From an uncultured Bacteroidota bacterium (GTDB lineage Bacteria; Bacteroidota; Bacteroidia; Flavobacteriales; Flavobacteriaceae): DNA of 34,166 bases. The notes below the pieces were generated by a model. That model was not told where the DNA came from and searched no databases. It saw nothing but the letters and a program-made list of their open reading frames with translations. Both the position numbers and the translations under genes were made by a program. Positions 3,595 through 27,042 of the stretch are shown here, in pieces. Where the stretch lies: assembly GCA_902593165.1 (NCBI GenBank), contig CACJHI010000017.1:1-34166 (forward strand), given 5' to 3'. Positions within the stretch are counted from its first letter, which is position 1. Each line of letters starts with the position of its first letter.

Positions 3595-4452
3595 TTAAAA
3601 CTGATGAAATCCTTGAGAGACAAATTCTAATACTGTTGGAAGAGATTCTCTCCAATATGTCCAAGTGTGTGCTCCATCTCTTACTCTATACTCATGATTA
3701 ATTCCTCTTTTAGAGAATGCAATATGAAGTAAGCTATTATCTTCGAATAAATAATCGTCATCTCCACAGTCAATATACCACCTAACAGAATTTAATTTAT
3801 TAAGAGGTATATCTTTAATTAATTCAAGTGGATGATTAGCTTTTAATAAAGACTGCATTTCATCTCTTGTAAATTCAAAACCATATCTTCTAATTCTTTT
3901 TAAGGACTCCTCAACATCAGTAGATCCTGTTGCAGAGCTAAGAGGAGCTGCTGCTGAGAATAAATCAGGTCTGTGTAGCGCATATGTCAGAGTCCCCCCA
4001 CCTCCCATTGATAACCCTGAAATTGCACGGAATCTCTTGTCTGATTTTATTCTATATTTTGACTCAACATGGGGCATTAATTCATTAAAAAAGAAATCTT
4101 CATACATCCAATTCTTTGATGGAATGTTAAAATATCCTACTTCACCTGTATTTGCATCAGGCATTACAATAACCATTGGAGTTGCTTCTCCGTTAATAAT
4201 AGCATTATCTGCAATTTTTTTCACCTCTCCAAATTGGATCCATCCAGTCTGATCATCACCTAGTCCATGCAAAAGATAAAGTACAGGATAAGTTCTAGAT
4301 GAGGTTTCATAGTCAGGCGGTAGATATATAGCATAGTTTCTATCCATATTTAGAATCTCACTATTCATTGTAAGATTATCAAATACTTTACTTTGAGCGT
4401 AAGTAAAATTTGCTACAGTAGTAAGTAAAATAAGCGTAAGAATATTTCTCAT
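3595..4452 (-). CDS. Secreted esterase (esterase D / feruloyl-esterase-like alpha/beta hydrolase)
   Basis: 285 residues with a signal peptide (about 1-20, ending TYAQ). It has the PF00756 esterase fold: YLLHGLGDDQTGW at 59-71, the nucleophile elbow GLSMGG at 146-151 (Ser148), a probable acid in DCGDDDYL (about 228-235) and the catalytic His262 in GAHTWTYW. Family members include acetyl-xylan and feruloyl esterases and S-formylglutathione hydrolase; the secreted form points to ester bonds in plant or algal polymers or other extracellular substrates. The specific substrate is not visible. It ends one base from the convergent yceI gene and is divergent from the gene at 4511 across a dyad-rich 58-bp gap. 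Confidence 0.87.
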   Translation of the reverse strand: MRNILTLILLTTVANFTYAQSKVFDNLTMNSEILNMDRNYAIYLPPDYETSSRTYPVLYLLHGLGDDQTGWIQFGEVKKIADNAIINGEATPMVIVMPDANTGEVGYFNIPSKNWMYEDFFFNELMPHVESKYRIKSDKRFRAISGLSMGGGGTLTYALHRPDLFSAAAPLSSATGSTDVEESLKRIRRYGFEFTRDEMQSLLKANHPLELIKDIPLNKLNSVRWYIDCGDDDYLFEDNSLLHIAFSKRGINHEYRVRDGAHTWTYWRESLPTVLEFVSQGFHQF

Positions 4453-4460
4453 TTTACCAA

Positions 4461-4500
4461 TTTAGTAAATAAATATTATATTTATTAATTAACTACTAAA
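4461..4500. promoter_or_regulatory. Nested inverted repeats between divergent genes (operator candidate)
   Basis: The 58-bp gap between the esterase start (4452) and the gene at 4511 holds two nested dyads: outer arms TTTAGTA (4461-4467) and TACTAAA (4494-4500), and inner arms AATAAATA (4468-4475) and TATTTATT (4479-4486) around TTA. All arms pair perfectly. The position suggests a shared operator; AT richness makes chance dyads more likely. Confidence 0.4.
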
Positions 4501-4510
4501 TCAATTAATA

Positions 4511-5260
4511 ATGAAAAAAATTCTAACAATATCCTTATTGTTTATTTCTCTTGGACTATTCTCACAGGAAGTCTTCTATATTCATACTGTTAATATTCCT
4601 GAGGAAAATCAAGAACATTTTGAAAACGTAATGACTAATTATGTAACAGGGTTAGCTCAGGATGAAATAGCTAAAGGTGATATTAAAGCATGGTATTTAA
4701 TGAAAAATGTGCCTAACATTGGTGAAAATAATCCTGATGGTACAAACTATTTATGGATTCATGTATTTGACAGCTATGAGGATATGACTGCTGGAAATCA
4801 GTGGTGGAATAACTCTACTGAAAAATATGGAATTGACCCAAGCATACTTTATTCAGGTTTTGGTGGAACCACGGGTGGTTTTTATTACTGGCAAACAGAA
4901 AGTGCAATAGAGTCTGATATAAAGGCTCAATACTTAATTTTAAATTTTGCAAGACCTAAAGATTTAAATGCTGTAATTGAAATAAATCAAGAAGTTGAAA
5001 AGCATTTTAAAAAGAACCTTGTAAAATCTGGAATGACAGGATGGGGATACGCAACTAGAATTGCTCCTCAGAACTCAACAAACGGAACAATTATGTTTTG
5101 GGATGTATACGATAATTTAACAAATGTCATGAAACACATGGCTGGTGGTGCTGCTCTTGAAGGTCTAGACCAATCCTTATTCAAAAAATTTGATAAGGCA
5201 AATCCAGATGGATGGTTAAATAGAATTATTCTTGAGTATGTTACTGGAACAACTGATTAA
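4511..5260 (+). CDS. Exported protein with two alpha/beta-barrel-like repeats
   Basis: 249 residues with a signal peptide (about 1-18, ending LFSQ). I do not recognise a named family. The mature part appears to be an internal duplication: residues 21-93 and 139-207 share the order of a strand with Tyr and Ile/Leu, an acidic helix, a tryptophan after a glycine (KAWYLM and TGWGYA), then a GTxxxW/F strand (GTNYLWIHVFDSYEDM and GTIMFWDVYDNLTNVM). This is the look of tandem dimeric alpha/beta-barrel (ABM-like) units. A Gly/Trp/Tyr-rich linker lies between (115-128). It precedes an NTF2-like lipoprotein by 10 bases, so they are likely co-transcribed. Function is unknown. Confidence 0.75.
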   Translation: MKKILTISLLFISLGLFSQEVFYIHTVNIPEENQEHFENVMTNYVTGLAQDEIAKGDIKAWYLMKNVPNIGENNPDGTNYLWIHVFDSYEDMTAGNQWWNNSTEKYGIDPSILYSGFGGTTGGFYYWQTESAIESDIKAQYLILNFARPKDLNAVIEINQEVEKHFKKNLVKSGMTGWGYATRIAPQNSTNGTIMFWDVYDNLTNVMKHMAGGAALEGLDQSLFKKFDKANPDGWLNRIILEYVTGTTD

Positions 5261-8115: not shown

Positions 8116-10350
8116 TTACTTAAATAGGTACTGAAACTTCAAAAATAATTGAGTTTTATTAACCCTGTAGTGAGGAGAATTATAATCTGTAAATTGATCA
8201 ATATAATTTTGATTCCCTCCTAAGTAAAATATTGTATCTGGATTAGGTCTCCAAGAAATAAGTGGTTGAAAGAAGAACTGCTCAGAAAAATCATTATACT
8301 CAGAAATCAGTCTAAGATCTAGGGAGTTAGTAAATTGATAACGAATATCAAGCCTAGCAATATAACCTTTAAAATAATACTCATTTGAGTCAAGCTTTTT
8401 TATCGAAGAATAATTAATATTTGGTCTAATTCTAAAATTATCATTGATTGAAATTTCAGATGAGAACCTTATATCATTCACCATTCCTAACATGGGAGTC
8501 TCAAGTCTGTAAGCAATATCTTTACCCCACTTATAAAAAATATTAAAGTTTATAAAATCTGCAGGCTGAGTCTCAACCCTAAGCCAATGATTAATAAAAT
8601 CTCTGAATTGAAATTCTAGATGTGACTTAACAAAGTTATACTCATAGTTATATAAAACATCAGTGTTCAGGACTGTCAAAAAGCCTAGATAACCTTGAAA
8701 ATTAGATCTAGAGATATCATGAGAGTAACTATATTCGAAGTCTTGTCTTAAACTAACTCTATATCTTTTAATAAAATCTTTGTTTGGATATTGATTAAAA
8801 CTATGCCACAGAGTATATTTTTTTTGGTTATTAGTTGTTATAAATCCAAGATCTGACCTAAATCCATCTGAAAGTTGAGTGTATTCAATAAATGATCTCC
8901 ATATTTCTGTATCTCTTCTTATAGTTGCATAAACTGCGTTCCCATTGATTGTCTCTCCATCCAATTGAACTGATCTTTCCCCATATTTTTTGTCAGAATC
9001 AATCCAATTAGCAACTGGTTCCTTATTGTTGTTTAGAAACAATTCGAATTCAAATTTCCAAACATCAGAAAAGTTTACAAGTGCATCAAGTCCGTATAAA
9101 TTTCCATATGCATCTCCTTCATAATATCTATTAGATGCTAAAAGACCAATTCTAGTTTTAGAGTCAAGAAAATTTTGATATCTAATTACGTTACTGAAAC
9201 TTTTACCTCCAACTCCAGAAAAAGATTCAAATTGTGTTGGTACTAGATAAGGTGTTTCTTCATCAAAAGCACTTAAAACATATAATCTTGAATTTCTCCC
9301 TTGATTAATAATTTTTGATGCAAATGATGGATTGTTGATTGATCTTGAATAAAAAACATCAAGCTGGTAATCCAATGCATCAATTCCTCTATTAAAAAAA
9401 GGTCTTCTTTCAGGATAATTTATTGCTGTTGGTGAATTTATATCAATTTTTGTAGCATCAGATTCAACTTGTGAAAAATCAGGATTTAAAGTTGCTTCAA
9501 TTGAAAGATTTTTATTCAACTCCATATTTACTCCTATTCCATAATTTAATTCTGGGGTTTCATAATTAATCCTATCATAATATTTATCTCTTGAACCTGA
9601 AATATTGGAACTTATATAAGGCAAAAAATCTAATTTTTTATCTATTACGATATCATTCATGACAATAGTATGGTCAATTAAACATAGCTGACAACTAGCA
9701 TCTCTACTTGACTTGCTTGAAGCAGCTCGTACTTCAACACCTTGATTTTCATCATCTATATACCCTGTAAAAAGCTCAAACTTCCATGACTGATTTTTAC
9801 CGTTTGGAAAAGGAAGCTCAGATAAAGGGATTAAAAATTCAATCTCATAACCTTCATCTGTTATACTGCCTGAAGACTGGAAATCGAAATTAATATTTAA
9901 ATTAATATTTAAACCTCCACCAAAGCTGGTGCCTGGAAGTCTTATTCCATCAGTTTGGCTTCCAGATGGATTTGATATAAGAAGTATGTTGTTCCTTGCA
10001 TCTCCATAACTATCAATTGTAATTCCAGCAAAATCTCCTCTAAAAAGCGCACTATTGTCTCTTGTGGTTAACGGAGCTATTACTCTTTCTCTCTTTGCTT
10101 TTAAAGCTACATAGAGATATTTATCAGAATATGTTATATATCCTGTAGTCTCTTGGGATGGGGTTGTATTTAGACCAGGCTCAGCTTCATAAATTATTTC
10201 AAGAATCTTTGCTTTATTAATTTCGTCCTCTGAAATAACCCCATCAATATTAAATTTATTTTGATCAATTTTATTTAAAACTAAAGTGGTCTCTTGGGAT
10301 ATGGAGTTTGAAAAATAAAAACTAAAAATAATTAATAGAAATTTTTTCAT
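8116..10350 (-). CDS. Outer-membrane DUF5916 protein with N-terminal CBM9-like domain (copy 1)
   Basis: 744 residues. A signal peptide (about 1-19) precedes a carbohydrate-binding family 9-like domain (about 25-215): the IDGVISEDE opening, DKYLYVALKAKR, a DSYGDARNN segment (113-121) and the IPLSELPFP block. A linker with C220-x2-C223 (SCQLC) follows, then a large C-terminal region of alternating strands with aromatic ends that fits a transmembrane beta barrel (DUF5916) and ends in a short aromatic strand typical of outer-membrane proteins. The segment YPERRPFFNRG marks the family. Ligand and function are unknown; binding or passage of a glycan or organic ligand is inference from CBM9. It lies 47 bases after copy 2 on the same strand; the two are a tandem duplication, clearly alike over their whole length. 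Confidence 0.85.
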   Translation of the reverse strand: MKKFLLIIFSFYFSNSISQETTLVLNKIDQNKFNIDGVISEDEINKAKILEIIYEAEPGLNTTPSQETTGYITYSDKYLYVALKAKRERVIAPLTTRDNSALFRGDFAGITIDSYGDARNNILLISNPSGSQTDGIRLPGTSFGGGLNINLNINFDFQSSGSITDEGYEIEFLIPLSELPFPNGKNQSWKFELFTGYIDDENQGVEVRAASSKSSRDASCQLCLIDHTIVMNDIVIDKKLDFLPYISSNISGSRDKYYDRINYETPELNYGIGVNMELNKNLSIEATLNPDFSQVESDATKIDINSPTAINYPERRPFFNRGIDALDYQLDVFYSRSINNPSFASKIINQGRNSRLYVLSAFDEETPYLVPTQFESFSGVGGKSFSNVIRYQNFLDSKTRIGLLASNRYYEGDAYGNLYGLDALVNFSDVWKFEFELFLNNNKEPVANWIDSDKKYGERSVQLDGETINGNAVYATIRRDTEIWRSFIEYTQLSDGFRSDLGFITTNNQKKYTLWHSFNQYPNKDFIKRYRVSLRQDFEYSYSHDISRSNFQGYLGFLTVLNTDVLYNYEYNFVKSHLEFQFRDFINHWLRVETQPADFINFNIFYKWGKDIAYRLETPMLGMVNDIRFSSEISINDNFRIRPNINYSSIKKLDSNEYYFKGYIARLDIRYQFTNSLDLRLISEYNDFSEQFFFQPLISWRPNPDTIFYLGGNQNYIDQFTDYNSPHYRVNKTQLFLKFQYLFK

Positions 10351-10397: not shown

Positions 10398-12638
10398 TTA
10401 AGATTTTATAAGGTACTGAAATTTTAAAAACAATTGAGATTTATTAACTCTGTAATTAGGTGAATTATAATCAACAAACTCATCAATGTAATTTTGATTT
10501 CCACCAACATAAAATATTGTATCAGCATTTGGTCTCCAAGAAATTAACGGTTGGACAAAAAATTGATCGGAGAATTCGTTGTACTCAGATATAACCCGCA
10601 AATTTAGGGAGCTAGTAAATTGGTACCTAACATCAAATCTAGCTATATATCCATCAAAAAAATATTCTTCAGAGTCTAATTTTTTTAATCTAGACAGGTT
10701 TATAGATGGTTTAATTCTTAGATTATTATTTAATGTTACTTCAATAGAAGTGTTAAATGAAAACCTATCACCTAACTCTGGTATCTCTTCACGGTATGCA
10801 ATTTCATTACCTGTGCCAAAACCTCCGCTAATATTTAAAAAGTCATATGGTTTTGTAGAAAATCTAACATAATGAGATGTGAAGTTTTCGAATTCTGACT
10901 TTAAATGTGAATCATAAAAGGCATGTTCGTAGTTATAAAATATATCGGTGTTAAGAATTGTAAGAATAGTAAAATATGCTTCAAATGCTGATCTCTTTAA
11001 CTTATTAGAATAACTATATTCTCTGTCATATCTTGCACTAACTCTGTAGTTTCTTAAAAGCTTTTTATCAGGGTATTTATAAAACCCATGCCATATCTCA
11101 TATCTTTTTATGTCATTCTCAACAATAAAACCATTATCTGCTCTAAAGGTTGGAGAGATCCCTGTATACCTCATAAATGACCTCCATGTATTAGTGTCTC
11201 TTCTTAATTCACTGTAGATTGCATTTCCAGTAAAATTCTCACCATCAAGGGCTACAGTGTAATCCCCAAACTTCTTGTCAGAGTCAATCCAATCTGAAAT
11301 TGGCTCTTTATTTGAACTATTAAAATATTCCAGTTCAAATTTCCATCCTCCACTGAACTTTAATAGACCATCAAGCCCAACAAGGTTTCCATAAGCATCA
11401 CCTTCATAAAGTCTATTAGTTGCAAGAGCACCAACTTGAATATTTGGATTTATTATATTTTGATATCTCAAGATATTATTGAAACTTTTACCTCCTACAC
11501 CTGAAAAGGATTCAAATTGGGTAGGCACAATATATGGTGAATCTTGATCAACAGCTGTTAACATGTAAATTCTTGATTTTTTTCCTTGGTTGAGAATTTT
11601 AGAAGCAAAAGATGGATTATTAATTGATCGAGAGTAAATAACATCCATTGTATAATCTAATACATCAATACCTCTATTAAAGAATGGCCTTCTTTCTGGA
11701 TAATTAATTGCTGTAGGTGAATTAATATCAATTTTCGTCACATCAGCCTCAACCTGAGAGAAATCAGGATTTAGTGTAGCCTCCAATGATAGGTTTTTAT
11801 TAATCTCAAGATTAACACCAATTCCATAATTTATTTTTGGAGAAACATAATTAATTCTATCATATAGCTTTTGTCTTTCTCCTGAAATATTAGAGCTAAC
11901 ATAAGGAAGAAAGTCAAGATTTTTCTTATAACTTATATCCTTCATTACAATAGTATGATCTATTTGGCATAACTTACAAGAGCTATCATTATCAAGCTTG
12001 CTACTGTATGCCCTAGCAGTAGATCCTTGTTTTTTTTGATCCCTATAACCAGTACTAACTTTTAATTTCCATTGTTGGTCTTTTCCATTAGGAAATGGTA
12101 TCGCTGAAAAAGGAATCATTACTTCTACTTCATATCCAAATTCTGTTAGTCTGCCTAATGAGTCCCATTCAAAATTTGGGTCAAGACTCCACCCACTATC
12201 TTGTCTTCCGAAGCCTGAAGACTCAACTCTTACTCCGTCATTTTGACTTCCATAGATATTAGCACTAAATCCTAGATTATTTCTTGCATCTCCATATGTG
12301 TCAATATGTATATTGACATAATCCTCTGAGAACAATGAAAAATTATCTCTTGAATGTATTGATGCAATAACTTCATCCCTGTAGGCCTTAAATGCTATAT
12401 ATACAAACTCTTCAGAATAGTTTACGTATCCTGTAGTTTTATATGATGGTATAGTATTATAACCAGGTGTATGCTCATATATAATTTCAATAGGAAATGC
12501 GTTTTTTAGTTCTGAGTCAGACAAAATACCATCAAGAATAAATTCAGACTTTTGTGTTTTAACTAGGTTTAAAACTGTTTGTTGTGAAAAACAAGTTAAG
12601 CTTATGACTAAGCATAAAAATAGAAAGGCTTTTTTCAT
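10398..12638 (-). CDS. Outer-membrane DUF5916 protein with N-terminal CBM9-like domain (copy 2)
   Basis: 746 residues, with the same architecture as copy 1: signal peptide (about 1-18), CBM9-like domain (about 25-215) with a DTYGDARNN segment, the C221-x2-C224 pair (SCKLC), and a C-terminal beta-barrel region carrying YPERRPFFNRG and long stretches such as SINNPSFASKI and PTQFESFSGVGGKSF shared with copy 1. It is the upstream member of the pair and may be co-transcribed with copy 1. No Bacteroidota -7 box was evident in the 116 bases upstream. It is not a TonB-dependent receptor because no plug domain or TonB box is present. Gene dosage or split ligand specificity could explain the duplication, but neither is shown. 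Confidence 0.85.
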   Translation of the reverse strand: MKKAFLFLCLVISLTCFSQQTVLNLVKTQKSEFILDGILSDSELKNAFPIEIIYEHTPGYNTIPSYKTTGYVNYSEEFVYIAFKAYRDEVIASIHSRDNFSLFSEDYVNIHIDTYGDARNNLGFSANIYGSQNDGVRVESSGFGRQDSGWSLDPNFEWDSLGRLTEFGYEVEVMIPFSAIPFPNGKDQQWKLKVSTGYRDQKKQGSTARAYSSKLDNDSSCKLCQIDHTIVMKDISYKKNLDFLPYVSSNISGERQKLYDRINYVSPKINYGIGVNLEINKNLSLEATLNPDFSQVEADVTKIDINSPTAINYPERRPFFNRGIDVLDYTMDVIYSRSINNPSFASKILNQGKKSRIYMLTAVDQDSPYIVPTQFESFSGVGGKSFNNILRYQNIINPNIQVGALATNRLYEGDAYGNLVGLDGLLKFSGGWKFELEYFNSSNKEPISDWIDSDKKFGDYTVALDGENFTGNAIYSELRRDTNTWRSFMRYTGISPTFRADNGFIVENDIKRYEIWHGFYKYPDKKLLRNYRVSARYDREYSYSNKLKRSAFEAYFTILTILNTDIFYNYEHAFYDSHLKSEFENFTSHYVRFSTKPYDFLNISGGFGTGNEIAYREEIPELGDRFSFNTSIEVTLNNNLRIKPSINLSRLKKLDSEEYFFDGYIARFDVRYQFTSSLNLRVISEYNEFSDQFFVQPLISWRPNADTIFYVGGNQNYIDEFVDYNSPNYRVNKSQLFLKFQYLIKS

Positions 12639-15593: not shown

Positions 15594-15809
15594 ATGTTCA
15601 AGCATATAGGTTTTTATCTATTGATTTTCACATTGTTAGTTGGATGTTCAAAATCTGAGAATCAATCTTGTAAGTCTGAAAAAATACAAATTGCATGTAC
15701 TAAAGAATACATGCCAGTGTGTGGTTGTGATAATACTACTTATTCCAATAAATGCGTAGCTCAATCTGAAGGAGTAAATACTTGGAGTATTGGCGCATGT
15801 AATGATTAA
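15594..15809 (+). CDS. Kazal-type protease inhibitor-like lipoprotein
   Basis: 71 residues. A lipoprotein signal ends at Cys18 (LLVGC). The mature part has six further cysteines (26, 35, 43, 45, 54, 69) in a Kazal-like spacing, with the hallmark PVCGCDNTTYSNKC segment (41-54) and a final G-A-C. Kazal domains inhibit serine proteases by presenting a reactive loop, here just before PVCG. Small Kazal lipoproteins are frequent in Bacteroidota, where they may guard the cell surface against exogenous proteases; target proteases are not known. It is followed by the IDO-family gene after 33 bases with no terminator, so co-transcription is likely. Confidence 0.85.
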   Translation: MFKHIGFYLLIFTLLVGCSKSENQSCKSEKIQIACTKEYMPVCGCDNTTYSNKCVAQSEGVNTWSIGACND

Positions 15810-15842
15810 TTTTTCCATACATTTATATCAAAACCCAATACA

Positions 15843-17228
15843 TTGAAATTAGAAAATTATACTGATAATTTCTTTGAAGTAAACTCAGTCAATGGATTTC
15901 TTCCAAAGAAAGGCCCATTATCCAAACTTCCTGAAAGATATAACGAGCTTCAAAAACTAATTGATGAAATGCCAATTAAAAAGGAAGATGGAAGTGATGG
16001 ATTGCTTTCAAGGAAAGGGGCTATTGAAGAGGGAGTTCATAGTCTATCAAATTTAAAAGATTTAGTAACTGGAGAAGATGATGTCTTTATCGTTCAGGCT
16101 TTGTTTAGAGCATATGCATTTCTTACAAGCGCTTACCTCTTAGCACCTGCCCACTTCAATTATATTGAAACAAAAAAATATGGAAAAGCACACAGTACTT
16201 TACCTGCACAAATTGCTGAGCCTTTTGTAATAGTTAGTAAGAAACTTGATGTTTATCCATTTATAGATTACCACTATGCATATTCTTTGGGTAATTACGT
16301 AAAGATAGATGATGCTAAGGGTTTTGAATGGGAGAATCTTGCTATGGCAGCAAAGTTCTCTGGCATGGATGACGAGAGAGGCTTCATAATGCTTCATGTT
16401 GATATAAATCAACATTCACCCGAATTAATTGGTAGCATATTTGATTATCTTGAATCTAATGATTCAACTGGAGTAAATAATTCTCTTAAAAAGTGTCTTT
16501 CATCGATGAAAAAAATAAATGAAAGAAGACAAATAATGTGGCAAGCCTCTAGATGGAAACATTATAATGACTTTAGAGTATTTATTATGGGAATTAAAGG
16601 TAATGATGAAATATTTGGTGATGGAGTGATATATGAAGGGGTATCCGATAAACCCGTTCAATACAGAGGACAGACAGGAGCTCAAGATAATATTATTCCA
16701 ACTGCTGATATCTTTACAGGAGTTATTGATTATTATCCATTAAATGATCTCACAAAATATCTGCTTGATTTAAGATCATATAGACCAAAGTGTATACAAA
16801 ATTTTTTAGAAGATATTAAAAATGAAATGGGAAATAGCAGATTATTTAACAGTCTAAAAGAGTCAAATAATGAGGAGGGGCTGTGTCTGTTAATTCAAAT
16901 TCTTGATGAAATATATTATTTCAGAAATGGTCACTGGCAATTTGTTCAAAAATATATAATGGCCAATACAAAATATGCTAAAGCAACTGGAGGTACTCCA
17001 ATAATTTCTTGGATTCCAAATCAAATTACTGCTGTATTAAATTACATGGATGATGTAATTAATTTATTACCTCAGAATTCAGAGTTTATAGATATTACAG
17101 AATTTAATAGTAAACTCTCCAAAAAAAGAGACTTACTAAATAAGCAGCTAAAATTACTTCATGGGGATGATTATAATGCAGATGAAGTTTTTTCACTAAA
17201 CAAAAAGATGAGTCTTAACGATGATTAA
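15843..17228 (+). CDS. Indoleamine 2,3-dioxygenase family heme protein
   Basis: 461 residues, close to usual bacterial IDO lengths. Family landmarks are GFLPKKGPLSKLP (18-30), LPAQIAEPFVIVSKKLDVYP (120-139), the YRGQTGAQ block (274-281), the LLDLRSYRP segment (307-315), RNGHWQFVQKYI (361-372) with the probable proximal heme ligand His364, and ATGGTP (381-386). IDO-family enzymes open the indole ring of tryptophan to N-formylkynurenine; related PrnB-type members use other tryptophan derivatives. No signal peptide. The start is TTG at 15843: the frame has a stop at 15807-15809 and no ATG, GTG or CTG between, and the first internal Met (residue 43) would cut off the conserved N-terminus. No kynurenine pathway genes are adjacent. 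Confidence 0.85.
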   Translation: MKLENYTDNFFEVNSVNGFLPKKGPLSKLPERYNELQKLIDEMPIKKEDGSDGLLSRKGAIEEGVHSLSNLKDLVTGEDDVFIVQALFRAYAFLTSAYLLAPAHFNYIETKKYGKAHSTLPAQIAEPFVIVSKKLDVYPFIDYHYAYSLGNYVKIDDAKGFEWENLAMAAKFSGMDDERGFIMLHVDINQHSPELIGSIFDYLESNDSTGVNNSLKKCLSSMKKINERRQIMWQASRWKHYNDFRVFIMGIKGNDEIFGDGVIYEGVSDKPVQYRGQTGAQDNIIPTADIFTGVIDYYPLNDLTKYLLDLRSYRPKCIQNFLEDIKNEMGNSRLFNSLKESNNEEGLCLLIQILDEIYYFRNGHWQFVQKYIMANTKYAKATGGTPIISWIPNQITAVLNYMDDVINLLPQNSEFIDITEFNSKLSKKRDLLNKQLKLLHGDDYNADEVFSLNKKMSLNDD

Positions 17229-17730: not shown

Positions 17731-19968
17731 ATGAGAGAAATATCATTCTTCATATTAATCCTTCTTCTATCAAACTTTTGTTTTGCCCAAAAAGAATTTA
17801 ATCTAACTAAATCGTCAGATAATGATATAATATTAGATGGTATTATTTCTGAGGATGAAAAAAGAAATTCAAAAATTGCAACAATTGACTTTGAACAAGA
17901 ACCGGGTGATAATATTCCAACGAAACTTCAATCAGAAGTATTTATTACATATACTGATACCTTCATCTATTTCGGAGTAAAAGCTTATGGTAATCCAGAG
18001 AATATTAGAGGACAAATAAAACCAAGAGATCAAGCAGATTATGAAAATGAAGATATGATATTCTTAAGAATTGATCCTTTTGGTGACTCAAGATCAAATT
18101 ATATTTTAGGATCAAATGCATTTGGAAGTCAAGTTGACCTTAGAGTTAAAAATGCTACGAGTGAGGAAGACACTTTTGATGAAGGTTATAATGCTGTCTT
18201 CGAAACTAAAAGCTCAATAGTTGATGATGGATATATTTTAGAATTTAAAGTTCCTATTAATTCACTTCCATACCCTCCTGGGAAAAATCAAATCTGGAAC
18301 TTTAATATTTCAAGAGTTTTTACACTTGATGGAACTTTTTACAGAAGTCAAACTCAACCATATGACAGATCAGACCCTTGCTGGGTATGTCAAGTAACAG
18401 ATAAATTGATTATGAATGATATTGTCTACAGAGGCAAGACTGAACTCCTTCCTTACATTTCATCAAACATATCAGGCCAAAGACAAACAGGATATAACGA
18501 TCCAATTGAATATGGAAAAATTAAAGGCGACGTTGGCATTGGTCTCAACTATGACTTTTCCCCATCTTCCTCAATTGAGGCAACAATAAACCCAGACTTT
18601 TCCCAGATTGAAGCTGATGAAACACAAATAGATATCAACTCTTCTTTTGCATTAGATTATCCTGAGTTAAGACCTTTTTTCAATAAAGGAATGGACCTAC
18701 TAAAGTTTATGGATAGAGGATTTTATTCTAGGACAATTAACTCTCCTAGTTTTGCATCAAAATTTGTTAATCTTGGAAGAAATTCAGGGACAATTCTTTT
18801 AAATGCTGTAGATGAAGTATCTCCCTATTTGATCGGAGGTGAAGATAAATCTTATAGTGGAAATGGAGGTGTTAGTTATGTAAATGCATTTCGCCATCAG
18901 AGATTAATTAATGAAGGATCAAAGTATGGAGTGTTCACTACAAACAGATACTTCAGAGAAGGTGGTTATGGAAATCTAATTGGAATTGATGGGCTATTCA
19001 CATTTAACACAATATGGAGATTTCAATTTGAATTTTCTAAAAGTTTTAATAAAGAGCCTGTTGCAAATTGGATTGAAAGTGACGAAACATTTTTAGATAA
19101 AACAGTAAAACTAGATGGGGAACAATTCAAAGGGAATGCCAGTTATGTCAGACTATCAAGAGACACAGAGCATTGGAACACCTCTATATTTTACAAAGGA
19201 ATTTCTCCAGGTTTTAGAGCAGATGTTGGCTTTGTTCCTCGAATAAATAGAAGGTATGGAACTATCTACCACGGGTATACAAGTTTTTTTGATAAAAAAT
19301 ATCTAAAAGAATTTAATACAAGCCTAAAAGGGGATATAAACTATAATTATGATAATAAGTTGAAAACCAAAAATTTTGATTTTAACATAAGCATTAAAAC
19401 ATTTGGAAAAACAGAGATTGGGTATGTTTATGAGTATAATTTATTTAGGAAGTATTTAAATATTGATTTTAGAAATTACGGAAAGTCTGGTATAGGAATT
19501 CGAGGGTTTCCAACTGAAAATTTGACATTTGGTTTTGAAGGAAAAATTGGTAAAGAAATTGCATTTAATGAAGAGATCCCAAAAATTGGTAAAGAGAAAT
19601 CTATATTTTTTAGCCTTGCTTATAAGCTTGGCAATAATATTAACTTAAGTTCATCAATTAATTATTCAAGATTAGAAAATTTGGAAAACAATGAAGCAAT
19701 TTATGATGGATACATATCAAGGTTGTCTTTTAGTTATCAGTTTAATAATGACTTAAGCTTAAGGTTAGTCTCCGAGTATAATAAATTCAATGATACTTTT
19801 CTTTTTCAACCTCTGTTGAAATGGAATCCAAACCCATCAACAATTTTTTATATAGGTGGGATTCAAAATTCAATAAATAATTTTGAATTAGAACCAGAGG
19901 ATTTTGACCCTTTTAGAGTAAATAGGTCTCAATTTTTTCTTAAATTTCAATATCTAATAGGAATATAA
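17731..19968 (+). CDS. Outer-membrane DUF5916 protein with N-terminal CBM9-like domain (copy 3)
   Basis: 745 residues. Signal peptide (about 1-19, ending CFAQ), CBM9-like domain (about 25-210; LDGIISEDE, TYTDTFIYFGVKAYG, RIDPFGDSRSN), C217-x2-C220 (CWVC), then a beta-barrel region with YPELRPFFNKG and an aromatic terminal strand (KFQYLIGI). It is clearly homologous to the tandem pair at 8116-12638 but more diverged from both than they are from each other, so it looks like an older paralogue. It lies 42 bases after the lipocalin-like gene and 2 bases before a small lipoprotein gene that probably shares its transcript. Ligand unknown. Confidence 0.85.
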   Translation: MREISFFILILLLSNFCFAQKEFNLTKSSDNDIILDGIISEDEKRNSKIATIDFEQEPGDNIPTKLQSEVFITYTDTFIYFGVKAYGNPENIRGQIKPRDQADYENEDMIFLRIDPFGDSRSNYILGSNAFGSQVDLRVKNATSEEDTFDEGYNAVFETKSSIVDDGYILEFKVPINSLPYPPGKNQIWNFNISRVFTLDGTFYRSQTQPYDRSDPCWVCQVTDKLIMNDIVYRGKTELLPYISSNISGQRQTGYNDPIEYGKIKGDVGIGLNYDFSPSSSIEATINPDFSQIEADETQIDINSSFALDYPELRPFFNKGMDLLKFMDRGFYSRTINSPSFASKFVNLGRNSGTILLNAVDEVSPYLIGGEDKSYSGNGGVSYVNAFRHQRLINEGSKYGVFTTNRYFREGGYGNLIGIDGLFTFNTIWRFQFEFSKSFNKEPVANWIESDETFLDKTVKLDGEQFKGNASYVRLSRDTEHWNTSIFYKGISPGFRADVGFVPRINRRYGTIYHGYTSFFDKKYLKEFNTSLKGDINYNYDNKLKTKNFDFNISIKTFGKTEIGYVYEYNLFRKYLNIDFRNYGKSGIGIRGFPTENLTFGFEGKIGKEIAFNEEIPKIGKEKSIFFSLAYKLGNNINLSSSINYSRLENLENNEAIYDGYISRLSFSYQFNNDLSLRLVSEYNKFNDTFLFQPLLKWNPNPSTIFYIGGIQNSINNFELEPEDFDPFRVNRSQFFLKFQYLIGI

Positions 19969-23584: not shown

Positions 23585-24919
23585 ATGAAAAAAATATTAG
23601 CTACAGCATTTCTAGCTCTAACATTTTGCGCTTTAAATGCACAGGAAATCAATTTTGTTGAATATGATTTAGATAATGGTTTACACGTTATTCTTCATCA
23701 AGATAATACAGCTCCAGTAATTACAACTGCTGTCTCTTATCACGTTGGATCCAAAGATGAAGAAGAGGGTCGAACTGGGTTTGCTCATTTTTTTGAACAT
23801 CTTCTTTTTGAAGGAACAAAAAATATTGAAGGAGGTCAATGGTTCAAAATTGTTGAGGCCAATGGTGGATCAAACAACGCATATACATCAGATGATCAGA
23901 CTTATTATTATGAAGTCTTTCCTTCAAATAAGTTAGAATTAAGTCTATGGATGGAATCTGAAAGAATGTTACACCCAATAATAAGACAAGAGGATAGAAT
24001 TACTCTGCAGGAAGGGGTCGTAAAAGAGGAAAAAAACTTTAGACTTAGGAATGCTCCATATGGTGCTCTACTATATGCTGTAAGAAGTAATCTATACAAA
24101 AAACATCCTTACGGGAGATTAACAATTGGTCTGGATAAGGATTTAACGGCTGCAAATATTGATGACTTTAAAAAGTTTAATGCTAGATATCATAAACCAA
24201 ATAATGCCACTCTAGTTGTTGCTGGAGATATTGATATTGATCAAACAAAAGAGATGGTAGAAAAGTATTTTGCTGATATTCCAAGTTCTGATGATGTTGT
24301 TCGAAATCTTCCTAAAGAAGATCCAATTGAAGAAACGATTCGTTCTACTTGGTATGATCCAAATATTCAAGTTCCTGCTCTACTAGTTGGTTATATAACA
24401 CCTAAAATGAACACTAGGGAAGCTAGAGTCTTAAGTCTTCTCTCAACATATTTAAGTGATGGTAAAAGTTCAGTGCTTTATAAAAGAATGGTAGATGACA
24501 ACAAGACTGCGCTAGCAGTTCAAACTGTTAACTTAGCACAAGAAGACTATGGTACTTATTTAATGCTAGCTCTACCTCTAGGAGAGATTACTTTAGAGAA
24601 ACTACTATCTGAGATTGATGAAGAGATTGAAAAAATTAAGAATGAATTAATTACTGACAGAGACCTCGAAAAACTGCAAAATTCACTGGAAACACAATTT
24701 GTTAATAGAAACGCATCAATTGAAGGAATAGCAAATTCTTTATCTGACTATTATACTTTTTATGGAGATACAGGATTGATAAACAGTGAACTTGATATTT
24801 ATAGAAGTATTACAAAAGAAGAGATTAGAGATGTTGCAAAAAAATATCTTAATTCAAATCAAAGGGTAATTGTTGATTATTTACCAGGTGATGAAACTAA
24901 TAAAACAATAATAGAGTAA
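23585..24919 (+). CDS. M16 (pitrilysin-like) zinc metallopeptidase, catalytic subunit
   Basis: 444 residues with a signal peptide (about 1-19, ending LNAQ). The inverted zinc motif H68-F-F-E71-H72 lies in GFAHFFEHLLFEGT, and the third ligand is Glu148 in VVKEEKN, 76 residues later, as in active M16B peptidases. Two M16 half-domains follow (N-terminal about 25-200, C-terminal about 200-440). It is expected to degrade peptides in the periplasm. The next gene starts inside its stop codon (TAATG) and encodes the non-catalytic partner, a common heterodimer arrangement. Confidence 0.92.
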   Translation: MKKILATAFLALTFCALNAQEINFVEYDLDNGLHVILHQDNTAPVITTAVSYHVGSKDEEEGRTGFAHFFEHLLFEGTKNIEGGQWFKIVEANGGSNNAYTSDDQTYYYEVFPSNKLELSLWMESERMLHPIIRQEDRITLQEGVVKEEKNFRLRNAPYGALLYAVRSNLYKKHPYGRLTIGLDKDLTAANIDDFKKFNARYHKPNNATLVVAGDIDIDQTKEMVEKYFADIPSSDDVVRNLPKEDPIEETIRSTWYDPNIQVPALLVGYITPKMNTREARVLSLLSTYLSDGKSSVLYKRMVDDNKTALAVQTVNLAQEDYGTYLMLALPLGEITLEKLLSEIDEEIEKIKNELITDRDLEKLQNSLETQFVNRNASIEGIANSLSDYYTFYGDTGLINSELDIYRSITKEEIRDVAKKYLNSNQRVIVDYLPGDETNKTIIE

Positions 24920-27042
24920 TGGAAAAAAAATTAAACAACATATTTAAAATAAAAATTGTAAAGAATATAATCTTAATTCTTGCAATAGTATTTACAGGAA
25001 GTTTGCACTCGCAACTTGATAGATCAATAGTTCCTGAGTCCGGACCTTCACCAGAGATATCTTTTGGAAAACCACAAACTTTTAAATTGGAAAATGGTCT
25101 TACTGTATTAGTGGTTGAGAATAATAAACTCCCAAGAGCTTCTGCTTCACTTTCATTTGACAATCCATTAATCTATGAAGGGGAAGTTGCAGGTGTAAGC
25201 TCAATCCTTGCTGAAATGATTGGAAATGGGACACAGTCTATCTCTAAAGAAGATTTCATTGAAGAAGTCGACTACATGGGAGCTTCAGTAAGTGTTACAG
25301 GATCTGGTGCATTTGCAGGGTCTTTAAAAAGATATTTTCCTAGAGTACTTGAATTAATGGCCTCTGCAGTTTTAGAACCATTACTTACTCAAGAAGAATT
25401 TGATAATCAAAAAAACCTTATTAAGGAGAGTCTAAAAACTTCAGATAAAGATGTTTCAACTGCAGCTTCTAGAGTTCAAGATTTAATTACTTATGGTCCG
25501 AAACATCCAAACGGTGAATTCATCTCACAAGAATCTCTTGACAGAGCAACTTTAAAAGACGCTGTTGATTTTTACAACAATTATTCTAGTCCAAATAATG
25601 CTTATTTAGTTATTATAGGAGATATAGAGTTTGAGGAAGTTAAATCAAAAGTAACTGAACTTTTCAGTCCATGGGAGTCTAAACAGGTAACTAGTGAGTC
25701 ATTTCCACAGCCAGAGAGTCCAAATGAGACTGAAATAATTTTTGTTGATATGCCAAATGGTGTTCAGTCTGTTGTTTCAGTTATGAATACTGTTGACTTT
25801 AATAAAAAAGAGTCAGACTATTTTTCAGCTTTGGTTGCAAACAGAATATTAGGAGGTGGAGGAGCTGGTAGGCTATTCAATAACCTTAGAGAGGATAAAG
25901 GATGGACATATGGTTCATATTCTGGAATATCTGAAAGCATAAAGACTAAGGGGAGAGTTATAGCTCAGGCACAGGTAAGAAATGAAGTTGTAGACAGTGC
26001 TGCTGTAGAGCTTTTAACGGAGCTTGATAAAATGAGAAATACTCTTGTAACAGATGAGGAAATCAACTCAGCTAAGGCAAAATATACAGGGAACTTTGTT
26101 ATGTCACTTGAAGATCCTTCAACAATTGCTGGAATTGCACTTAATATAATTACAGAGGATCTTCCAGAAGATTATTACAATAGTTTTCTTGAAAACATAA
26201 ATAATGTTACTAAAGAAGATATTCAAAAAGCTTCTCAAAATTACTTTACCCCAAACAAAACAAGAATTTTTATTACTGGAAAAGGAAGTGAAATTTTAGA
26301 GAAGGTTGACAACATTGAATACAATGGAAAAGAAATTTCAATTCGATACTTTGATAAGTTTGGTAACGAAATCCAAAGGCCAGACTATTCTGTATCAACA
26401 GATGTAAGTGCAGAGGGAATAGTAACTAATTACATAAATTCTATAGGCGGTAGAGATAGACTAGAGAAAGTTGAATCTATTGAAATTTCAGGAAATGCTA
26501 ATCTAAACATGCAAGGCCAAAGCTTTGTTTTAGAGTTCTATTCTCTGAAAAACAATCAAAATCAATCTCTAGCAACAGTGACTGCAGGAGGTATGATGGT
26601 TCAAAAAAGTGTTTTCAATAAGTATCAAGGATATAATGAGGTTAATGGTCAAAGAATGCCTCTAACAGATTCAGAACTTGAAAGTGCAATAATTGACTCT
26701 GCCTTATTCTCTGAATTAAATTATGATTTTTCAACGATTGAACTTATTGGGACTTCAGTTGTAAACGACGAAAAAGTTTATGAAATTAAAATCACTGATA
26801 ATAAAACTGAGTACTATTCGATTGAGTCCGGCCTTAAAGTAAAAGAGATCGAAACAACAGAGGTAGAAGGAAATCAGATTGTTGTTGAAACAACTGTAAA
26901 TGAGTATGAAGAAGTTGATGGAGTCTTAATCCCAAGTGAAATAAATCAAGTAACTCCTGCTCTACCAATACCTGGTGGAATTACTATAAAGTTTAGTAAG
27001 ATAAAGCTTGATGTAAAAACTTCAGACTCTGATTTTAATTAA
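24919..27042 (+). CDS. M16-family inactive partner with LolA-like C-terminal domain
   Basis: 707 residues with a signal anchor or signal peptide (about 13-32, ending LHSQ). The first M16 half (about 45-260) has GVSSILAEMIGNGT where the HxxEH motif should be, so it lacks the zinc site. The second half keeps the Arg/Tyr region (FNNLREDKGWTYGSYSG) that completes the partner's active site in M16B dimers. From about residue 503 (TNYINSIGGRDRLEKVESI) a further 205-residue all-beta domain resembles LolA/outer-membrane lipoprotein-sorting folds common in Bacteroidota. It overlaps the catalytic subunit by one base, so translation is coupled. The tail may bind lipoprotein or peptide substrate (inference). 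Confidence 0.88.
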   Translation: MEKKLNNIFKIKIVKNIILILAIVFTGSLHSQLDRSIVPESGPSPEISFGKPQTFKLENGLTVLVVENNKLPRASASLSFDNPLIYEGEVAGVSSILAEMIGNGTQSISKEDFIEEVDYMGASVSVTGSGAFAGSLKRYFPRVLELMASAVLEPLLTQEEFDNQKNLIKESLKTSDKDVSTAASRVQDLITYGPKHPNGEFISQESLDRATLKDAVDFYNNYSSPNNAYLVIIGDIEFEEVKSKVTELFSPWESKQVTSESFPQPESPNETEIIFVDMPNGVQSVVSVMNTVDFNKKESDYFSALVANRILGGGGAGRLFNNLREDKGWTYGSYSGISESIKTKGRVIAQAQVRNEVVDSAAVELLTELDKMRNTLVTDEEINSAKAKYTGNFVMSLEDPSTIAGIALNIITEDLPEDYYNSFLENINNVTKEDIQKASQNYFTPNKTRIFITGKGSEILEKVDNIEYNGKEISIRYFDKFGNEIQRPDYSVSTDVSAEGIVTNYINSIGGRDRLEKVESIEISGNANLNMQGQSFVLEFYSLKNNQNQSLATVTAGGMMVQKSVFNKYQGYNEVNGQRMPLTDSELESAIIDSALFSELNYDFSTIELIGTSVVNDEKVYEIKITDNKTEYYSIESGLKVKEIETTEVEGNQIVVETTVNEYEEVDGVLIPSEINQVTPALPIPGGITIKFSKIKLDVKTSDSDFN

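Follow-up and report, generated by a model that had tools for sequence, protein, structure and literature searches.

Immediately downstream of an M16 peptidase gene in a 34,166-nucleotide stretch of flavobacterial DNA (the window, from a genome that we call G000 and that is 75% complete) lies a gene for a second M16-like protein, P0001, which appears to have lost its own zinc site and continues into an additional C-terminal domain. What would such a domain do on an inactive peptidase subunit? A sequence-only reading had called it a LolA-like tail that may hold or select substrates for the catalytic partner. Here we ask what the two halves of P0001 are, how widely they are joined, and whether they have travelled together; the features on which the answers rest are collected in the table.

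Table. Features of the M16 locus in the window and of related tail-bearing M1-type peptidases (window coordinates unless a locus is named; G005 is a close relative of G000).
Feature	Coordinates	Strand	Basis or remark
Active M16B partner gene, 444 aa	23585..24919	+	Pfam, HFFEH site
HFFEH zinc site of active partner	23786..23800	+	motif
Predicted inactive M16B subunit gene with C-terminal LolA-like domain (P0001, 707 aa)	24919..27042	+	open throughout
Putative signal peptide, P0001 residues 1-31	24919..25011	+	by eye; A31 and Q32 nearly invariant in relatives
Conserved N-terminal segment, QxDRSxxPxxGPAPEI, P0001 residues 32-48	25012..25062	+	alignment of relatives; lower model confidence
M16B body, P0001 residues 50-470	25066..26328	+	Pfam, model, Foldseek
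Lost zinc site S95-I-L-A98-E99	25201..25215	+	alignment; HFFEH in active partners
R/Y pair, R324 and Y331	25888..25911	+	alignment of relatives
LolA/LolB-fold tail, P0001 residues 498-707	26410..27039	+	profile matches, model, Foldseek
Low-identity block, 58% DNA identity between G000 and G005 (surroundings 91%)	23708..26495	+	ends at body/tail joint
M1-type peptidases with the tail	L062 1498-4113; L065 1250-3877; L066 1209-3809	-	Pfam, tail match

The two genes of the pair overlap, the stop codon of the first sharing bases with the start codon of P0001 (TAATG). By the Bacteroidetes Q-rule, as given in the available text of PMC5837995, mature P0001 would begin at Q32, and the conserved segment that follows may bind the partner subunit. 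Elsewhere in the window are an indoleamine 2,3-dioxygenase-like protein (15843-17228; Pfam IDO, 2.8e-43) and three proteins of about 745 aa (8116-10350, 10398-12638 and 17731-19968), the first of them with DUF5916; the other two have no Pfam match at E 0.01.

Pfam recognizes Peptidase_M16 at residues 67-179 of P0001 (2.9e-8) and Peptidase_M16_C at residues 210-388 (2.2e-34). The absence of HxxEH, noted from the sequence at the outset, is borne out by alignment with 12 active M16 partners, in which the corresponding columns of P0001 read SILAE. M16 active sites use an R/Y pair besides the zinc motif (PMC12731061, section 7, in the text available); R324 and Y331 are invariant in 36 of 36 relatives in one alignment and in 75 of 75 in a larger one, and the pair is absent at the matching place in all 12 active partners aligned. 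With R/Y in the inactive half and HFFEH in its partner, the subunits would therefore hold complementary parts of one active site. The full-length model of P0001 (pLDDT 90.9, pTM 0.79) has as its top Foldseek match 3amj_B, the inactive subunit of the Sphingomonas A1 M16B heterodimer, with a target TM-score of 0.87 for the M16 body. The locus thus combines what characterizes an inactive M16B subunit, namely a two-domain M16 fold of about 420 aa, HxxEH in the adjoining gene, and R/Y in the zinc-less half, and by these sequence features P0001 is an M16B pseudo-peptidase subunit, with the upstream gene product as its predicted partner. The heterodimers SPH2681/SPH2682 (Sphingomonas sp. A1, 3amj) and TTHA1264/TTHA1265 (7v4y) likewise have one chain with HxxEH and one without, but their chains of about 420-440 aa, unlike P0001, leave no room for a LolA-like tail. 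FusC and PqqL are likewise periplasmic bacterial M16B peptidases but, according to the available text of PMC12731061, are single chains of 924 and 931 aa with a role in iron acquisition, whereas the locus described here has two chains and a tail.

The tail had been described as 205 residues of all-beta structure resembling lipoprotein-sorting folds. It is a separate domain, at about residues 498-707, but it is not all-beta: helices are modelled at 498-509, 512-517, 584-593, 598-601 and 703-706 of the full-length protein, the chain running from a pair of helices into a long antiparallel sheet, interrupted by two further helices, and ending in a short one. When the tail is modelled alone from a 75-row alignment the pLDDT is 95.6, and the resemblance to sorting folds stands, model and fold search yielding a confident LolA/LolB fold and not an unrelated one, with the open antiparallel beta half-barrel and inserted helices of that superfamily. 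Foldseek returns 41 PDB matches at E <= 0.001. The first is a DUF1329 protein, followed within the top ten by NE2245 (two chains), Porphyromonas gingivalis LolA3 (two chains), a Vibrio lipoprotein-sorting domain, LolB in the LolCDE complex, Escherichia coli LolB and a variant of it, and P. gingivalis LolB; the best match within the LolA superfamily proper is NE2245 (3buu, E 3.3e-9). Further down the list are many LolAs, LprF, LppX and MucB/RseB, as well as the unrelated names VioE, EPD-BCP1 and a PNGase. The tail therefore has the same fold as NE2245, LolA3 (9tp6), and the LolBs of P. gingivalis (9tpm) and E. coli (1iwm), at identities of 8-14%, although unlike any of these it is the end domain of a peptidase subunit.

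At the sequence level, the tail alone scores 26.1 bits with DUF4292 (PF14125; cut-off 23), the whole protein 21.2, and the whole-genome search 24.8, and the tail alone scores 14.2 bits with LolA_like (cut-off 30). Among 75 tails, DUF4292 matches 18 and LolA_like nine at E 0.1, and 57 are without a DUF4292 match. Searching the PDB with a sequence profile of the aligned tails yielded a single chance match (E 0.59), and profile comparison with LolB1 by hhalign is weak (probability 20%, E 0.001). Only three positions are invariant across the 75 rows, and because the sequence is so poorly conserved no conserved ligand site can be named. One face of the tail strands is more hydrophobic than the other (58% versus 30%; 52 of 2000 shuffles are as high), which fits a lipid pocket without proving one, and this face may be just the fold core.

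Could the tail simply be a LolB? LolB acts at the outer membrane and bears, between its strands 3 and 4, a protruding loop that exposes a hydrophobic residue (PMC11885536, in the text available). This loop is missing from the tail model, in which strands 58-64 and 67-74 (tail numbering) are joined by a two-residue GG turn, and the hhalign alignment with LolB1 has a 14-residue gap in the tail at the same position. LolB is, moreover, a lipoprotein with a lipidated N-terminal Cys, and Cys is absent from the first 50 residues of P0001; by eye, a lipobox-like Cys is present in three relatives (L038, L051 and L162), all of them tail-bearing. On the absent loop and the absent Cys we reject the identification of the tail as a true LolB. 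We also reject the notion that it is the sole LolB-like protein of the genus, LolB1 genes scoring above the cut-off in 18 of 25 genus genomes, although the 75%-complete window genome yielded none. Some frames as long as the fused protein (689-725 aa) weakly match LolB1_Flavo (NF053559), all of them below its cut-off of 50 bits. LolA itself is a periplasmic carrier to which LolCDE passes lipoproteins; its Pfam model has matches in none of the 25 genus genomes.

The M16-LolA-like fusion is common in Bacteroidota and is not peculiar to the window genome. The family profile has matches in 182 of 197 genomes of the class (the window's included), and near-full-length fused matches, down to E 3e-157, occur in at least 53 of the 197, a count that may miss weak or diverged fusions; among the matches listed, the next ones cover the M16 part only, and most of their frames are about 950 aa long. 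When the tail by itself was the query, 47 of 149 class genomes had a match at E 0.01. Among named genomes, a scan gave at least 590 confirmed stretches, from which 80 loci were kept; of these, 78 have a fused frame (660-760 aa, in no case with HxxEH), and an active M16 gene lies directly upstream in 77 of the 78, the sole exception (L106) lying on a short contig with 593 bases upstream. The remaining two are a broken frame (L126) and a locus at which the catalytic gene was picked (L148). Named records with a match include, among those listed, Flavobacteriaceae, Chryseobacterium, Pedobacter, Mucilaginibacter, Chitinophagaceae, Bacteroidales, Melioribacteraceae and Stygiobacter. Nor is the tail confined to M16 proteins. 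M1-type peptidases of 867-876 aa, recognized by the Pfam M1 domain in three genomes, end in the same tail (hhalign probability 99.9 for L062, the sole M1-type protein compared), and stand-alone tail proteins, 242-260 aa long and judged by eye to have signal-like starts, are found at L039, L056, L059 and L070, the last (4200-4925, 242 aa) directly after a fused gene. Conversely, the 345-kb genome G039, presumably that of a symbiont, keeps the M16 pair without the tail (L030, 194-2853), its inactive subunit having no evident signal peptide.

Within the window's genus the M16 bodies form three fully supported clades (I, II and III), 40-45% identical between classes, and the catalytic genes sort into the same three classes, in agreement with the body in all 16 genomes placed in both trees. 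Flanking genes and tails disagree with the M16 class. For example, G000 and G005 have protein identities of 99% for TesB, 94% for the tail, and 96% for both EamA and GldE, but 58% for the catalytic subunit and 43% for the body; G008/G009 and G020/G007 show the same pattern, while in G010/G002 the tail differs as well (70%), the identity profile of the DNA staying low throughout it. Trees were built from 16 rows for the body, 16 for the tail and 15 for EamA (G017 left out, G024 without an EamA in reach, the G002 EamA 39% filled). The body trees reject uniting G000, G005 and G023 (p-AU 1.5e-84), G008 and G009 (2.3e-47), and G020 and G007 (5.5e-50), and uniting class I is rejected by both the tail tree (5.2e-5) and the EamA tree (2.7e-96). 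The class label needs six changes on each of the latter two trees, where the minimum is two, and clusters no more tightly than shuffled labels (as low in 58 of 200 shuffles for the tail and 124 of 200 for EamA). As a counter-point, the tail tree weakly rejects the G000, G005 and G023 clade (p 0.049), other close relatives being mixed in.

The classes are not readily explained as paralogues: of the 24 other genus genomes, 20 have matches, and in each of these 20 there is one fused-type gene (in two pieces in G017) and a catalytic gene (except in G017), although at 54-95% completeness a second M16 copy could be missing from some; G011 has an extra 345-aa frame besides its M16 pair. It is also unlikely that they are assembly chimeras, since comparable joints turn up in separate assemblies and again in Chryseobacterium, there mostly in named strains. 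Two of the genus contigs bear AG- isolate names, which we take to be single-cell names, and their record titles say MAG. Either assembly errors or decay have broken both M16 genes of G017 (L069, 1142-4635), the break in the fused gene lying near the body/tail joint.

Breakpoints were placed by a one-block fit to DNA identity in four genome pairs. In three of these the divergent block stops at the body/tail joint (65 bases past the YxxxIGG-type codon in G000/G005, 57 bases past it in G008/G009 and 16 bases short of it in G020/G007), with identities of 58-59% inside the block and 85-91% outside; in the fourth, G000/G023, both of class I, the fit is weak and the block ends inside the body (73% inside, 85% outside). 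In Chryseobacterium the L124/L139 comparison has DNA identities of 91% for the catalytic gene and body and 88% downstream, but only 58% for the tail, that of L139 being of the L144 type (80%). Tails of the seven Chryseobacterium loci compared divide five versus two, with 58-61% identity between groups (protein identities were obtained for six of the seven), and a similar tail split (L104, L129 and L152 versus the rest) is seen among eight other Flavobacteriales loci with bodies 59-77% identical. The exchange thus has opposite senses in the two genera, and the M16 half and the tail therefore seem to move independently at one joint; in some lineages, to judge from these comparisons, the tail appears to be a self-contained exchange unit and the M16 pair a co-inherited one.

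A question separate from the role of the tail is whether this pattern reflects anything beyond ordinary recombination among divergent exported genes, with no special selection on the locus. We sampled a single genome pair, G000/G005, in which 74 of 359 ORFs have syntenic anchors on both sides and 68 of these have usable matches (median identity 93%), the remaining six having no match or a short one. By whole-protein identity the M16 genes are third and fifth lowest of the 68, and nine fall below 70%, several with signal-like starts by eye; the M16 locus is thus among the most divergent in this pair, yet not alone. On contig 14 of G000 (L181), two frames with signal-like starts (3623-4351 and 15621-16367) have 40-46% identity to G005 in conserved surroundings, and are candidate exchange loci. 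Ordinary recombination does not so easily account for the recurrence of one joint in three of the four fitted pairs, the reversed direction in Chryseobacterium, or the excess of class-label changes on the tail and EamA trees, and we place its chances a little short of even. A more ambitious and, in our view, rather improbable proposal is that the locus acts as a polymorphic device for recognition in the periplasm, in which a peptidase pair and a lipid-binding domain each persist as several old, diverged allele classes and are reshuffled between species independently of one another, always at the same joint, because of the changing set of incoming acylated or hydrophobic peptides that each module meets (e.g. 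lipopeptide antibiotics, bacteriocins, host or algal peptides).

What, then, does the tail do? We propose, with a probability of roughly one half, that the locus encodes a periplasmic two-gene M16B peptidase whose tail has the putative role of capturing acylated or hydrophobic peptides for the protease chamber. The proposal builds on the architecture, the split of catalytic residues, the fold, the conserved gene pair and the separate module exchange, as read from sequences and models, and adds heterodimer formation, a tail ligand, a substrate and its hand-over as presumed steps. The upstream subunit would supply the zinc site, and the downstream subunit would contribute R/Y and complete the chamber with its second half; with these split over two subunits, activity should need both. 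The tail would most likely bind an acyl chain or another hydrophobic part of a peptide (lipoprotein fragments, lipopeptides) and would feed bound peptides into the chamber. The earlier suggestion that it holds or selects substrates is compatible with the data, and is favored because the same tail is fused to the unrelated peptidase family M1, and because exchange affects the tail and the M16 pair independently, the behavior one would expect from a specificity module. The M16 pair can evidently serve without the tail, since G039 keeps it so.

A docking role fits nearly as well, the tail binding an outer-membrane lipid or lipoprotein carrier and placing the peptidase at the membrane with no substrate contact. 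LolB, an outer-membrane protein (PMC11885536, in the text available), is among the fold matches, and the tail is lost in the tiny genome G039. Since a lipobox is not visible by eye in most members, the tail could stand in for a lipid anchor, but the three relatives with a lipobox-like Cys keep the tail too, and the loop between strands 3 and 4 that distinguishes LolB is absent; we regard docking as unlikely, if less so than the alternative that follows. It is doubtful that the tail has a LolA fold but no lipid ligand, and acts in subunit contacts or as a lid: its top Foldseek match is to a DUF1329 protein, and the protein-binding MucB/RseB are also listed, but tails 50% identical sit on bodies 97% identical, and tails 94% alike on bodies 43% identical, an uncoupling that argues against tight, co-evolved contact with the body.

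M16B pairs and LolA folds are already known, and it is their fusion and exchange, with the body/tail joint as an exchange boundary, that on sequence comparison is apparently new here; we found no paper on an M16-LolA fusion or its exchange, including in the available text of PMC11885536, PMC13103446, and the reviews PMC12731061 and PMC11266112, subscription literature being mostly outside this scope. Which substrates bacterial M16 proteases cleave physiologically is poorly defined (PMC12731061, in the text available). A fused lipid-carrier fold that is widespread, that also occurs on M1-type peptidases, and that appears to be exchanged as a unit would make acylated peptides, the substrates proposed here, a testable substrate class, and the natural chimeras at this locus offer material for asking what each module decides.
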